A DNA stretch of 64,000 nt from assembly GCA_958450365.1 (NCBI GenBank), contig CAUEEP010000727.1, positions 1,927,501 through 1,991,500 on the forward strand, given 5' to 3'. The position numbers and the translations under genes are program-made. Of the stretch, positions 1,804 to 25,070 are shown one piece after another; positions within the stretch are counted from its first letter, which is position 1, and each line of letters begins with the position of its first letter. This stretch comes from Mesorhabditis belari. Taxonomy: Eukaryota > Nematoda > Chromadorea > Rhabditida > Rhabditidae. Under the pieces are notes generated by a model. That model had not been told where the DNA came from. It saw nothing but the letters and a program-made list of their open reading frames with translations, and did no database searches.

Positions 1804-2379
1804 TCTCCGACTGACCAACAAATTTGTAAAAGATTATAAAAAGTGTTTTTAAGTTTTCTCTTTCTCGCTAAACGTTGTGAATAAAACTCTTGAATGGTTT
1901 TTTTTGTCGTACTTTTGATAATTTTTATGAATTGTTTTTATGGAATGCCATACAAAAACGAAAAACCTTATTGCATACGTAGCAGATTTGCCTTTCCAGC
2001 AGATAAAACGGCTCAACTGTACGTTTTTGCAAGAACTACACTTGAGTTAGCTCGTTTAGAGGAATTTTGATATTGCGTTGTACATGGTCAACTTGACCTT
2101 ATTGGTATCAAAACCGATGGAACCGACCAATTCTTACAAAGTGATAGAACTTTCAACAGGTTTTAATTCCATAGAAAATCCGATATGATCGAATCAACCG
2201 TAAGAATTTCTTGGTTTTCGTTTAGCAAGACCAGAAGTCCGTTAGAAAATTTTATATCGAGAGATCATTTGTGGCCCCTAAAGTTTTCAGTTTTCGTTTA
2301 AAACAGTGAAGTCCGTTGGAATATTATTCTAACGTTACATGATAAGATTGAAGAATACATTTTAACAAGATCATTTTGT
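1804..2379. other. Spacer, no gene seen
   Basis: Apart from the AATAAA poly(A) signal at 1880-1885 for the upstream gene, this AT-rich stretch has only short unconvincing ORFs before the H4 3' stem-loop. Confidence 0.6.
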
Positions 2380-2395
2380 GGCCCTAAAGAGGGCC
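2380..2395 (-). terminator. Histone mRNA 3' stem-loop (H4)
   Basis: On the minus strand the sequence reads GGCCCTCTTTAGGGCC followed by ACAAA, 41 nt past the H4 stop. It is the same element as at 399-414 and 3417-3432. Confidence 0.95.
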
Positions 2396-2963: not shown

Positions 2964-3381
2964 ATGGCTCGCACTATACAAACACTAGCCGGTTGGAGAC
3001 GCTCTGGGGGCAAAGCTCCCCGCAAGGACCTCGCCACAAAAGCCGCTCGTAAATCGGCCTCCGGCGACTGGAGGAGTCAAGAAGCCACGTCGCTACCGGC
3101 CAGGAACAGTCGCACTCCGGGAAATCCGCCGTTACCAAAAACCGACGGAACTTCTCATCCGCAAACTTCCTTTCCAAAGGCTCGTCAGGGAGATTGCTCA
3201 GGACTTCAAGATCGACCTCCGCTTCCAATCATCGGCTGTGATGGCTCTCCAAGAAGCTTCTGAGTCCTACCTCGTCGGCCTCTTTGAGGACACCAACTTG
3301 TGTGCAATTCACGCTAAGCGCGTCACCGTCATGCCTAAGGACATTCAACTCGCTCGGCGCATCCGTGGAGAGCGTGCCTAA
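2964..3381 (+). pseudogene. Histone H3, frameshifted with damaged tail
   Basis: The body is clear H3: [75 protein letters not shown] and RIRGERA, stop 3379-3381. It is the replication-dependent type (SAVMALQEA). Two defects: (1) the span is 418 nt, and the frame shifts by +1 near 3060-3072, where KSA is followed by one extra base before GGVKK, so the N-terminal frame runs out of H3 and hits a stop at 3261-3263. (2) The tail reads [21 protein letters not shown], so K4 is replaced by I and the ARKST segment with K9 and S10 is replaced by a seven-residue unrelated stretch. Promoter and 3' stem-loop look intact. Either a recent pseudogene or sequence error; two independent defects favour a pseudogene. 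Confidence 0.85.
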
Positions 3382-3416: not shown

Positions 3417-3432
3417 GGCCCTCTTTAGGGCC
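3417..3432 (+). terminator. Histone mRNA 3' stem-loop (H3)
   Basis: GGCCCTCTTTAGGGCC preceded by CCAAAC and followed by ACAAA, 35 nt after the H3 stop. Intact although the H3 frame is broken. Confidence 0.93.
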
Positions 3433-19457: not shown

Positions 19458-22400
19458 TCAATTCAAAAATATAAGCTGACTGGCTCCATGTTCAGTAATT
19501 TGCGTCCCTATTTGTTCGACCAATCTTGGAATCTGTCCGTTGATAATTGCGTCAGAGGTCGGCGATTGTGATTCGATGAAATAAGACTCTCTGAAAAGAA
19601 AATGTTCGCAGAATATTTTAATTTACTATAGCATTATTAAATACAAAACTAACTGGAGGTGGGGTCGAGCCAAAGCGTTTCGTTCGTGCAATTCGCGTAG
19701 TCGTCCGTATTTGTCATATTTGTCTTCTTGTTGTCCATATCTTCGAACGAGGGGCATGGGGCCAATGGATGAACGATTTCGAGTCGAAAACGTCTGTTTG
19801 GAACGAGGGTCCAGCTCCTTCTTGATAGCTAAAGCAACCTTCTATTAGGTTGATGCATAAGTCTTTTCGTTTTTTTCGTACTTCTGTTAAAAAGTAACAA
19901 ATTCACCAATTAATCTATAGTTTGCTCTATAAAAAAAGTGTTTTTTGTTCAATTTCCATCTTTTTAAATCAATTTCGGTTCACTTTCAAGCAAATTCGAG
20001 AGTGAAAAACGCCTTTTTCGTAAAAATCTATAAAAAACTCTACGGAAAAATTGGCTGAATGAATTTCTCTGAAATTTTGGCGAAATATCAAACTTTTTTT
20101 TCTCTATCTTTTATCTATTGACACGAAGATAGGTTTTCTTTAGCTAAGGTGTCTAAACCGCATCATCGAGTTAGCCCTTTTTGACTACCCGACTTCATAC
20201 TCTCAAGAAAATCCAGGCATAAAATATTTTTAAACCCGTTTTAATGTTATTTTGCAGAAAAATAATTGGTTTTTCTAATGAAATCAACCGTAGTTTAATT
20301 GGTGCATTTGTTGGCTTGAAACGGCAGACGAAAAGGAACAAAAAGACTTATGCATCAACCTATTATTATAGGACATTAACGCTAAAACTAACCCTTCGCA
20401 CCACCCTGGCCTTGAAGTTTAGAAGATGGAATCACTTTTCTCGTTGCGTTTCCTTTCAGTAGTCGTGCTTCCTTTTCATGCGCTTCTTTGAGGTTTTGGA
20501 CGTAGGCGTCACGCTAAAAAAGTTAATGTTTTTTCTATCAACAAATTAAAGTTACCAATTTGCGCTCATAGTCTTCTTTGGTGTCATGGAGTTGCACTTC
20601 GAGTTGCTTGTTTCGGGAGCTGAACCGAGTATTTTCTTCTTTCAGCGTTTCAATTTCGTTGTTTGCGTTGCTTAATTCCAGGAAAGCTTCGTACGACTTC
20701 TTCTCTTCGGCAACAAGTTTTTCTTTCAGTTGAATTTTCTAAGGAAAAAAAATGTTGAGATTTATCGTTAAAGTTACCTCTTCTTCTAACTTGCCGAAAA
20801 TTGCCTTGAGCTCGTTGAATTCTTCCGAACGCGTTCCTTCAGCGGTCTTCTCCCTTGCCATAACTTGCTGCAAGGTCATTTCCAGCTGCGCGTTAACTTT
20901 CTCCAGCTTCTGGAACATCTCCTCAAGCTTCATGTTTTTCTTGTTCATCTCATTTATGACGCCTTGACGATCGAAAAATTGAGTCTAAAGTGATCTTTTT
21001 ACCGATCCAATTGAAATCACAAAATACCTGCAAAACATGCTCCCTTTCCTGCATTTCCGTTACTTGTCGCCTCAAAGAAGCATTTTCAGCGGTAAGTCTA
21101 AAATAAAATAGACAACAAACTGCAATATACCACAGACCTAGAAATTTCAGATGTCTCCTCGTCTTTGGCAGCATTCATCATCGTTTTGAATTGCATATTG
21201 TACGACTCGAGGTTCTTGATTTGCTCTTGAAGACCATCGCGAATGGCTCGTTCCTTCTTCTTCTCATTTTCAGACGATCGAAGTTGCTCCAGTTGTGATT
21301 CTTCGGCGACTTGTAGTTTCTCTTTCAACGTCCGAATTTCTTCTTCGCATTGTCGGATTTCTTCCAAGTGCTGCGTTTCCTAAATCAAACTTTTATTTAA
21401 TGAAGGGTTTGTAAAGGTAACTTTTGCTTCAATGTCGGCTTGTTTAGCACGCCGGTGATTCGAATAGTCGGAAACGATTTCGTTGAGCTCCCTATCCTTT
21501 TCCTCGAAGTGTCTCCTGTAATCTTCAGCGGATCGCTCAAAAGTTCGGGCCTTCGCAGTAAGTTCATCGATTTCCGCATTGGCGTCGTCCAGCTTTTCTT
21601 TGAAGGACTTCACCTAGACATAAATTTCTTCCAAATATTGCATTTCCTAAATCAAACTTTCATTTAATAATCGGTTTTTAAAATTAGTTAGGTGTTACTT
21701 CCTCTAGCTTGCCAAAAATTGTGGTACTACGGTTGGGGGCCCACTTTTTTTTCTTAAAGGACGCTTTTTCTAGGTAATTTTTTATTTTTAATAAATTTGT
21801 AATTTTTAATCTTCATTTAAAATTTTTTTATTTATAGGGTAATTTTTAACGCTGATTCCGAATTTCAACATCTTAAGTCCGCTAAATAAATTTTAATTTC
21901 AGAAAAGTCACTAAGATTTTCCTTTTGCATTGGCACGTTCTTCGAGTCGACCCACATCACCCCAAAGAAAACCTTTCGCTTATCTCTACCTCCATCAATA
22001 CGGCACCCATGCTGACATCGCCCGTGAGCTGAAAATTGTGGTCGGACGGTGCGGTCGAACAATGAGAACAATAGACTCGAGATGTCTTCAGTTCGTGGTT
22101 CGTCCAACATCCTCGACAAATCGGCGGCTTTGGTACGTGGAAATCGACGAGACATGCATTTCGAAGAGGAAACATAACGTCAGAAGAGTTCCTGGTCAAA
22201 GAAGAATGTGGCTCTTCGGTGGAATCGAACGTGGACCCGGCCTCGACTTCATGCAATTGGTGCCTCGTCGAGATGCTTCGACGTTGCTGCTTGCTGATTA
22301 TCCAAACATTTGTCCCGCCAGGCTCCATTATTTACAGCGATCTTTGGCAAGCTTACACTGGCGTTGGCAACATATTTCATATGGCGTCAACAGTCAGTCA

Positions 22401-25070
22401 ACCATCAAGACAATTTCGTTAATCCCATCAACGGTACACAGAAGCTTGAATCTATGTGGTCCCGTTTCAAGAAGTCGATGGTCAAGCGCCCTAATGGTAT
22501 CAGGGTTCGCTCAAACCAGATGTACACCGACTACATTAACGAATTCTTGTGGAAGCAAGAGTTCGGCCAGGACATTTTCTTCAACTTCTGGAATCAGACT
22601 AGCGTGCTTTACAAGTGCGAATGAAAATGCCTCTAATTAACCAAACGGCTCTCTTTAGGGCCACAAATTAACATGGGAACAGAGAAATTTGCAATTTGAA
22701 AATGATGTTGAAATTCGGAATCATAAAATAAAAATTATCCCAGAAAAGAGTCTTTCAAGAAAAAAAAGGGCCCCCGAACCGGCGTAGTACCAAGAAAGGT
22801 TTATAAACTACCTCCTCGACCAAATTTGCAATCTGTTTGGTGATCTCCAGGTTGTTTCTCTCTAGCCTGCTTGCCATTTTACGTTCTTCCTCCAATTGCT
22901 TCGTCAAACTTTCCGCCTGCATTTGTGCTTCTGCTTGAACCGCATTTGCTTGATTCTTTAGGGCGAGGATTTCCTGAAGAAATGATCAACTATGAGGCAT
23001 TACTTTTGCATTACCTGGTTTTTCTCCTCAATAAGTTGTCTATGCAAAGTCAGCTCCATTTCTAGATTATTCTCTTTGTTTTCTTCCTGGGAAAATGAGA
23101 CAATATTCTTAACAAAAAAACATTAAGTTAATTGCTGTGACGAATCAAACTTTTTCAGCAATGTGCACATCAGCTGCTACTTCCTCTTCGTCGTTAAAGT
23201 TGAGTGTTCGGGCCCTTTGTACGGATCGGCGAACTTCTTCCGATGGCAGATATATAGTACGGCGGCGTTTGGTATATGTTTGTGGAGTTTGCAAAGCCTA
23301 TAACTTCCCGCTTTTCTTATTCCGTCATAATAAACTTACAGTTCGCTCATCCTCAAAACAAATTTTTGTTTTTAACGCGTCGATTTCGGCGCTTTGTTTC
23401 AGCGTCAAAAGTTTTAACTCTTCGTTTTCTTCTTGAAGATTTTGCAGCATTGCTTTGTATTCTAAATCACAACTACACATAAGTAAATAAATGAGTGCGT
23501 ACCTAATTGTGCATCTTGGAATTGCTGATTCAGGCTGTTCACTTTGCTGTTCAAAGCCATCACTGTGTTGCCCGTAATTTTCATATCAACCTAAAGAAAA
23601 TTGACATATATTTTTGAAAAAATGGTACTTGAAGACGGTTTTCAATCAAACGGCAGTCACGAGCGAATTGCAAAGAAGATATGATGTTCGTCAAATCACT
23701 AAATTTTAATATTTCCTATATAGAAAAGCAGATAAACCTTTTCTCCGAATGAATCGTGACAACAATGGATGTGCGCGCTTTTCCGCCAAGCGAATCCTTC
23801 AAGAAGAGAGTGAGCTTCGAGTCTCTGTAACTGATGACCGACTTCTTTTCTGACAGCTGCCGCATTACACGAGCAAGGCATATCAAGCTCTAGACACAAA
23901 TGTAAAAACAAATTTTTGCAAACTAACTATGTTGATGGCGATTCCCTCTTTAAACTGCTCGGACCCAACTTTGATACCAGTTTGTGCAATGCGTTCCGAT
24001 CCAGCCAAGTCAACGAGGTGTAGCTTTGAGGTGCGCCGCTCCGCAAGATCGTCAACAAGTTGTTCCGTTGTAAGCTAAAACACAAAAAGTGAAATCTTTA
24101 TCAGAAAAGTACCTCAATCACGAACACGCAGTGGGATTGACTCGATGCACTGTTCAACTTCGTTTCCACTGTCTTTCTTGCATTCCATCCTTTGGAAAGA
24201 AGCTAAACTAATAATTGCTAATCTGAAATTAGAATTACTTACCTCCAGAGCTTCCGCTGTGGAAGTAACCTTAAACCGCTTGGCATTCAAACCCGTCAAT
24301 GTACGAAATTGAAGCTAAGCAGAAGTAAACTTTTTTCAGGAGTACCTTTCTTTACCTTTACGTTGTCATCCAGCAAGTCATACCATTCCTCTTGATACAG
24401 TTGCACATAACAAATGTGCATTTCACTTTGGAATTTCTCTTTGGTCAGCTAAAAAAGAAACGGATTCATTAATCACTATCCCAAGATCCAAACCTGGTCG
24501 GTTTTAGCTTTGAGGAAACTGAAGAGATCGTCGATGCATCTTGGAATTATGCCTTGATCGTTGACCGGAATAGTAGAGAAGTCATCAATTTGTGAAGGGC
24601 CCACCATCGTGTACGTTTTACCTAAAACAAGCTTTCACTCAAAAAGTCAAAAATTTTAATAAAGTGTGCCAAAAGTTTACCACTTCCAGTTTGCCCGTAT
24701 GCAAATATTGTTCCGTTGAGTCCAATCGTGATTCCATCGACAACTTTCTTTCCCAAAGCTGCATAGACATCTGTCTAAAGAAAAAGAATAAAAACGTCTA
24801 CTTTGCTGTTTTGACAAGTTTAAGCATTATTAAAGTTTAGAGAAACACCATTTTTGCACACTAGGTTAAAACCCTTTGCATGGTCTTGTTTAACAACCGT
24901 ATTCTCACTACTTTTTATTATACTGTGAAAAGAAATACCTGTGAGGCCGTCCAGTCAAAGGCTCTATCCACCTTGTAGTCGGTTTTCTCCAATTTGACCG
25001 TCGAGCCGCTCGCTTCCACCACCCGATCGTTACCATCACGCGCTCGGACACAGACAAAAGCCCGTTCCAT
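19458..25070 (-). CDS. N-terminal-motor kinesin with long coiled-coil tail
   Basis: Microtubule motor. The first eight motor exons read in phase from ATG 25070: MERAFVCVRARDGND, FDWTASQ, P-loop GQTGSGKTYTMVGP, DDLFSFLKAKTDQ, QLYQEEWYDLLDDNVK, switch I NSASSQSHCVFVIE, switch II HLVDLAGSERIAQTG, EGIAIN, YRDSKLTLFLKDSLGGKART, then the neck segment FARDCRLIENRL. A charged linker (YTKRRRTIYLPSEEVRRS) leads into coiled coil from about 23.1 kb on, and the tail exons at 19458-21613 end GTQITEHGASQLIFLN. Layout fits kinesin-12/KIF15-like motors, but the family is not proven. A Merlin transposon (21723-22791) lies in the intron between the exons ending NLVEE and beginning VKSFKEKL, which stay in frame. 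The tail half is duplicated at 28.1-30.3 kb and in part at 33.6-34.4 kb. Confidence 0.85.
19844..20362. mobile_element. Mariner-derived MITE, copy 1
   Basis: Inverted ends TAGGTTGATGCATAAGTCTT (left from 19846, right to 20362) flanked by TA; the TTAGGTTG start is mariner-like. About 515 bp, no transposase. The site is empty in both paralogous segments (28490-28510 and 33970-33990), so insertion into this kinesin intron came after the duplications. A second, closely similar copy is at 47832-48332. Confidence 0.88.
21930..22624 (+). pseudogene. Merlin transposase (ISXO2-like DDE), frameshifted
   Basis: Three frames are needed: about 21930-22290 holds KPFAYLYLHQYGTHADIARE and YVEIDETCISKRKHNVRR with WLFGGIERGPGLDFMQLVP; about 22285-22390 holds VPPGSIIYSDLWQAYTGVG; 22390-22624 holds NFVNPINGTQKLESMWSRF, ending TSVLYKCE, stop TGA 22622-22624. 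The catalytic residues are visible as D in EIDE, D in SDLW and E in LESMW. Two shifts make this copy inactive unless it has introns I cannot see. It runs antisense to the host kinesin gene. A histone-type stem-loop follows its stop. Confidence 0.85.
22647..22662 (+). terminator. Histone-type 3' stem-loop behind transposase
   Basis: GGCTCTCTTTAGGGCC forms a 6-bp stem (one G-U pair) and the CTTT loop, preceded by CCAAAC and followed by ACAAATT. It differs by one base from the stem-loops of H2A, H3 and H4 in this window and starts 22 nt after the transposase stop, inside the transposon TIRs. An AATAAA-like signal near 22729 is an alternative 3' end. Confidence 0.85.

Follow-up and report, generated by a model that had tools for sequence, protein, structure and literature searches.

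A lineage of Merlin/IS1595-type transposons in the nematode Mesorhabditis belari carries, just past the end of its transposase gene, the 3' end signal typical of replication-dependent histone genes. The anatomy of this captured histone 3' end is well supported, and suggests that the elements borrowed the machinery with which their host ends its histone mRNAs. In our judgement a histone 3' end was probably captured once, by one lineage, and kept as an RNA signal for a transposase mRNA that would lack poly(A) and be bound by the stem-loop binding protein (SLBP). The window referred to below is the whole stretch of 64,000 nucleotides that was analysed; the genome searched comprised 207.6 Mb in 714 contigs, and counts from the genome searches are lower bounds.

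Anatomy of the window element

The features of the window copy are listed in Table 1. Its transposase is split across several frames, with the EIDE region in one and the C-terminal part in another. The C-terminal piece matches the DDE_Tnp_IS1595 domain with 13.9 bits (E 0.055; the Pfam cut-off is 27), and the other transposase piece gave no Pfam match. The target site duplication is doubtful: by eye, its two sides agree at 4/8 or 6/9 positions. The preliminary description had placed a histone-type hairpin with its flanks 22 nt past the stop codon and inside the terminal inverted repeats (TIRs), and this was borne out: the hairpin at 22647-22662 starts 22 nt past the TGA at 22622-22624, is preceded by CCAAAC and followed by ACAAATT, and is oriented as the mRNA sense strand of the element. 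It has the anatomy of the histone signal, with a 6-bp stem, a 4-nt loop and C/A-rich flanks shortly past a stop codon. The 31-nt block folds into this 6-bp stem and 4-nt loop at -8.3 kcal/mol, a value equalled by 3 of 200 shuffles.

Table 1. Features of the transposon copy in the window.
Feature	Position	Strand	Basis
Merlin/IS1595-type transposon copy, decayed	21723..22791	+	TIRs; relatives genome-wide; TIR core count
Left terminal inverted repeat GGTACTACGGTTGGGGGCCC	21723..21742	+	pairs imperfectly with right end
Right terminal inverted repeat, minus strand = GGTACTACGCCGGTTCGGGGGCCC	22768..22791	-	imperfect complement of left end
Inner inverted repeat, left arm, 20 nt	21853..21872	+	full complementarity to 22704-22723
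Inner inverted repeat, right arm	22704..22723	-	perfect 20-nt pairing with 21853-21872
Transposase piece with EIDE region, single frame	21990..22340	+	matches 28 further genome places (29 in total)
C-terminal transposase open frame to TGA 22622-22624	22310..22624	+	first residues probably off-frame; Pfam DDE_Tnp_IS1595 E 0.055
Histone block, upstream conserved part: TTAACCAAAC here, family consensus CCAACCCAAC	22637..22646	+	
Histone-type 3' stem-loop GGCTCTCTTTAGGGCC	22647..22662	+	pattern match, consensus, folding
Histone block, conserved downstream part ACAAA	22663..22667	+	family and host consensus
AATAAA, possible polyadenylation signal of the window copy, not conserved in the family	22727..22732	+	

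Comparison with the host histone signal

To our knowledge, a hairpin of this type normally terminates histone messages only. Histone hairpins occur in the window at 399 (+), 2380-2395 (-) and 3417 (+), and pattern comparison upheld the earlier statement that the element hairpin differs from these three by one base, giving a G-U pair. The hairpin pattern, with up to two mismatches, has five matches in the window compared with a mean of 0.90 and a largest value of 4 in 100 shuffles. With the extended 31-nt block, a score of at least 23/31 is reached at four window places only, namely the element and the three histone hairpins. A chance resemblance to the histone signal was rejected on the basis of these shuffles and block scores. 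When the whole element was compared with host histone DNA by BLAST, the best match was a 32-nt stretch around the hairpin.

The consensus of 28 element blocks (27 distinct) is CCAACCCAACGGCCCTCTTTAGGGCCACAAA, which is identical at all 31 positions to the host histone block and is the commonest form among the host histone blocks compared. The consensus set includes four likely non-autonomous copies and the weak L081, and omits L011, L053, L051, L073 and L075. The 16-nt hairpin and its flanks are shared with the host histones and with the C. elegans sequence AACGGCCCTCTTTAGGGCCACA, as given in the available text of PMC1924863, whereas the gene upstream is here a transposase.

Against the Rfam Histone3 model (RF00032) the window hairpin scores 23.1 bits, with a gathering score of 34. 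A second scan did not list it, and there the undoubted histone-type hairpin at 3417 is likewise below the gathering score. The genome search with this model scored 75 of 55,675 candidates and listed 73 matches, again a lower bound; among those listed, 18 pass the gathering score and 14 lie in the transposon family, one of them weak (L081). The family copy at C708:1346189 reaches 36.7 bits, above the gathering score and second among the matches listed. An Rfam scan of 20 loci returned 22 matches, all below gathering: Histone3 was found in 7 of the 20 at E values up to 5 (the match in L045 on the opposite strand), and matches to microRNA families were dismissed as inverted repeats matching by chance.

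Some features of the host histone loci were recorded in passing. A histone H3 copy at 2964-3381 (+) of the window, beside one of the histone hairpins, is frame-broken, with internal stops and an altered N-terminal tail, and its 3' hairpin is intact. Single histone hairpins tens of kilobases apart form like patterns at G000:C545:3025864-3207028 and C550:99744-1455882; of the two examined, the C545 hairpin stands after an H3 frame and the C550 hairpin after an H2A-like frame. Units resembling GGTTCTTTTTAGATCC recur, many at intervals of 43 nt, at G000:C49:46080-46728 and C13:36065-36698 and inflate the genome count of one-mismatch hairpin matches.

Membership of the Merlin superfamily

Genome searches gave at least 42 matches to the C-terminal transposase piece, at least 29 to the EIDE piece and at least 58 to PF12762 (DDE_Tnp_IS1595). 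The TIR core GGTACTACGCCGGTTNGGGG was found at 54 genome places with up to one mismatch, and the reversed control pattern at none. Both ends of the window element begin GGTACTACG..., that is, with 5'-GG TIRs. Three short TIR-bounded copies were examined, of which two, L133 and L134, have perfect 8-bp target duplications; the flanks of the third, L135 (G000:C645:171225-171610), are mutually inverted copies, which may stem from misassembly or from a palindrome.

Three transposase pieces of the lineage match PF12762 with 28 to 53 bits (cut-off 27), and in the genome search with this domain the lineage copies C714, C538 and C552:3256609 lie above the cut-off and C4 and C711 just below. The pieces scanned stop short of the full N-terminus, where Merlin elements have no Zn_Tnp_IS1595 zinc-finger domain; in P0001, a relative from outside this genome, PF12762 was the sole Pfam domain found. 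Among outside proteins, the transposase has its highest-scoring relative in Heterodera trifolii, with 41% identity over 87% of the read-through query. The viral contigs searched held no relative of P0001 and no exact 24-nt nematode-type histone block.

Terminal GG and target duplications of 8 or 9 bp are described as Merlin features in the available text of a 2021 survey of eukaryotic Merlin elements (PMC8101967). The present lineage resembles the Merlin superfamily (IS1016/IS1595 group) in the DDE_Tnp_IS1595 domain of relatives, the GG-initial TIRs and the 8-bp duplications of two TIR-sharing copies, but differs from it in the histone-type 3' hairpin past the transposase stop. The terms histone, stem-loop and hairpin are absent from the main text of that survey in its available form. 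The lineage is diverse, and all copies examined are decayed.

The hairpin as a trait of the lineage

Elsewhere in the genome, related copies likewise have the CCAACCCAAC-hairpin-ACAAA block past the transposase end, which supports the preliminary description of a Merlin-type transposon with a captured histone 3' end. For a systematic count, 78 loci from protein and Pfam searches were scored for the 31-nt consensus at a threshold of 23/31, and were sorted separately, by closeness of the transposase and with self matches excluded, into the lineage and other IS1595-type families. The block was present at 18 of 34 lineage loci and at none of 40 loci of the other families (Fisher P 3e-8), as well as at one of four unassigned loci. 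Where the C-terminus was reached, 14 of 21 lineage loci, including the window copy, had the block, and otherwise 4 of 13; among the 40 loci of the other families, 32 reach the C-terminus and 8 do not. When the window copy is left out, the comparison for loci reaching the C-terminus is 13/20 versus 0/32 (Fisher P 1.2e-7). The copies are related, so these P values are a guide and not strict probabilities.

In this count near copies (for example L050/L051 and many alike copies of the other families) each entered as a separate locus. Rows of the protein searches taken as haplotype duplicates from their equal scores (C4, C677:325506, C702, C576, C568:149709, C690:39219 and C318) were left out, as was C546:3144293. 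Of 58 PF12762 rows, 43 fall within the loci examined and 15 were left out (C324, C709:182583, C139 and 12 of the lowest rows). When 40 flanks were scored against the consensus, 35 gave 15-19 and five gave 23-28; with ten shuffles per flank, the best scores lay between 16 and 21.

The recurrence of the block runs against the refuting condition named in the preliminary description, that other family members lack the stem-loop, and shows that this is not a single copy that landed on histone DNA; a capture private to the window copy was rejected because the block stands at the transposase end of many related copies. The other families (C253/C694/C696, C543 and L064/L065 types) have a related transposase domain, and some have frames of at least 300 aa, but they lack the block at all 40 loci scored, so that a trait of every IS1595-type transposase in the genome was also rejected. 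In a tree of the transposases, one branch (local support 0.935) parts the lineage copies from the hairpin-less L064, L065 and L069-L071, and the lineage side includes copies without the block. The tree was made from fragmentary pieces aligned to one query; pieces shorter than 45 residues (L056, L128, L129) were left out, and L068, L084, L088 and L089 are absent, as the query found nothing in them.

Sixteen of the 34 lineage loci fall below the threshold, seven of them with the C-terminus reached. Remnants of the block are seen in L045, where the hairpin has disappeared but CCCAACCCAAC and GCCACAAA persist, in L053, where the 5' arm is lost, and in L068, which retains the CCCAACCCAAC side; L061, L127 and L136 have no recognisable remnant. 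A sub-group of the lineage (L046, L048 and L049, on C21 and C677) has its C-terminal end replaced by other coding-like sequence and has no histone block. L045 also holds, at 2184-2229 (+), a second histone-type hairpin with CCCAACCCAAC on the strand opposite its transposase, which perhaps belongs to another element in the other orientation.

Twenty-five copies, the degenerate L011 (22/31) and L053 (21/31) included, were measured for the distance from the last matched transposase codon to the hairpin, and in 24 of them it is 26-58 nt. It is 307 nt in L129, which likely reflects a nested insertion. The probable insert (L129:170-480) lies between an upstream CCCAACCC and the hairpin and, by eye, has inverted-repeat-like ends.

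Twenty further single regions, taken from the Histone3 matches listed and from a genome search with the hairpin pattern, were examined. A C-terminal transposase piece lies just 5' of the hairpin in six of them (L072, L084, L088, L089 and the haplotype pair L077/L078), L085 has a more N-terminal piece, and L081 has a weak transposase match (E 0.007). Six others (L073, L074, L075, L079, L080 and L083, with L073 and L075 99.8% identical) have the side from hairpin to TIR in common with the L054 subfamily and no transposase was detected in them; from their sequence they look like non-autonomous derivatives of that subfamily. L086, L087 and L091 are histone genes, and L076 resembles, by eye, a histone H3 end. 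The hairpin regions L082 and L090 were set aside as unexplained, and L002, L003, L004 and L006, which have the 16 hairpin letters without the flanks, were rejected as family members.

Conservation and variation of the block

Compared pair by pair, the copies average 0.81 identity over the 31-nt block, a value inflated since all 21 copies compared were picked for having it, compared with 0.55 for the last 31 coding nucleotides (present in 18 of the 21) and 0.33-0.35 for the adjoining 31-nt stretches. This set omits L063, L011, L053, L129, L045 and the near duplicate L051. Five of the six stem pairs show changes on both sides, compared with 2.1 expected, a number reached by 1 of 500 shuffles. 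The proportion of paired cells in the stem is 87.0% versus 85.9% when shuffled. Of 500 shuffles, 90 reach this proportion and 35 reach the covariation score. The evidence from covariation is modest, as expected of decaying copies. The loop CUUA occurs in L054, L062, L085, L128 and L129 and in the likely non-autonomous L074, L079, L080 and L083. In the stem of L129 a C-G pair has become U-A and the stem is retained. Weakly folding blocks also exist (L050, -2.3 kcal/mol).

Host machinery and 3' ends

The SLBP RNA-binding domain was found in the host with 65.8 bits, in an open 260-aa frame at C544:66889. Three more SLBP-domain matches, two with an in-frame TAG, lie at G000:C564:1405186-1474908 and are possible paralogues or pseudogenes. 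According to the available text of PMC1924863, C. elegans histone mRNAs end 3-6 nt past an identical hairpin and for the most part lack poly(A); adult animals express them in the germ line. The downstream AATCC/AATAAA elements of C. elegans are not conserved here: AATCC occurs in 2 of 22 element copies, and neither motif in the eight host histone-type 3' ends checked, one of which is the H3-like remnant L076. The same eight ends have no polyadenylation signal.

Interpretation

We propose that, near the base of the lineage, an element took over from a replication-dependent histone gene its 3' end signal of roughly 31 nt, sited about 25-60 nt past the last transposase codons. In living copies the transposase pre-mRNA would be bound by the host SLBP, and the mRNA would end a few nucleotides past the hairpin without poly(A), like most C. 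elegans histone mRNA. This would tie expression to cells that replicate or belong to the germ line, from which insertions pass to the offspring. Coupling to S phase is the least certain step of this scheme, and an mRNA protected in the germ line would be an equally good benefit. The observations behind it are the position and sense orientation of the block, the identity of its consensus to the host signal, its presence in many diverged copies and in putative non-autonomous derivatives, its absence from the 40 loci of other families examined, and conservation far above that of its flanks. With moderate confidence we favour expression of the transposase as a histone-type mRNA, SLBP-bound and hairpin-ended without poly(A), confined to replicating or germline cells and selectively kept across subfamilies.

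The block might instead be a passenger, captured once by accident, without function in the element and merely inherited. The decay of all copies examined and a stem pairing in present copies barely above that of shuffles are what such a history would leave, but the block is 0.81 identical, a figure inflated by the choice of copies, while the adjoining stretches of the same length lie near the level of unrelated sequence; its consensus is still the host sequence at every position and its spacing from the gene end is retained. We regard simple inheritance as unlikely. A role at the DNA level, in which the hairpin is a subterminal site that the transposase uses or that serves when the element replicates, and in which resemblance to histone ends has no bearing on RNA, appears very improbable. 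It would fit the six putative derivatives of the L054 subfamily, which retain the hairpin without a detected transposase, but two short copies with the same TIRs and perfect 8-bp duplications lack the hairpin, although another transposase could have moved them. These two copies also make it unlikely that the hairpin is needed in cis for transposition. Moreover, no site of this kind lies on the 5' side of the window element (best 18/31), and the block retains both its histone flanks and its sense orientation.

The hairpin could also lie on an mRNA polyadenylated further downstream, where it would serve, for example, as an element for germline stability, translation or entry into a small-RNA (CSR-1) pathway. 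In C. elegans the germline complex PETISCO:TOST-1 binds histone mRNAs (available text of PMC12803260), and CSR-1 with small RNAs antisense to stem-loop-adjacent sequences has been proposed to act in histone mRNA 3' processing (available text of PMC11125478); the window copy, too, has an AATAAA at 22727, 64 nt past the hairpin. Against this, AATAAA or ATTAAA occurs within 100 nt past the hairpin in 9 of 22 copies compared with 9.8 expected from shuffles, which is no enrichment and indicates that no polyadenylation signal is conserved there in the family. In the hairpin-less families such a signal is found within 150 nt past the stop in 11 of 33 cases compared with 4.3 expected, though these cases are largely close copies of one another and some of their frames are doubtful. 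Downstream polyadenylation of this sort is, in our opinion, improbable, and the capture of a histone end kept as a signal for a poly(A)-less mRNA remains the preferred reading.

Open-licence PMC full text yielded no description of a transposable element with a histone 3' hairpin, which is weak evidence of absence as most subscription literature lies outside it. If the proposed expression is correct, the transposase messages would form a class of protein-coding mRNA in metazoans that has a histone 3' end without encoding a histone. A selfish element that kept a histone end through long divergence would show that this pathway is open to hijacking, and would link DNA transposition with the control of mRNA in replication or in the germ line. 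The natural variants of the block, such as the CUUA loop and the swapped stem pairs, would then be probes of what the nematode SLBP tolerates.
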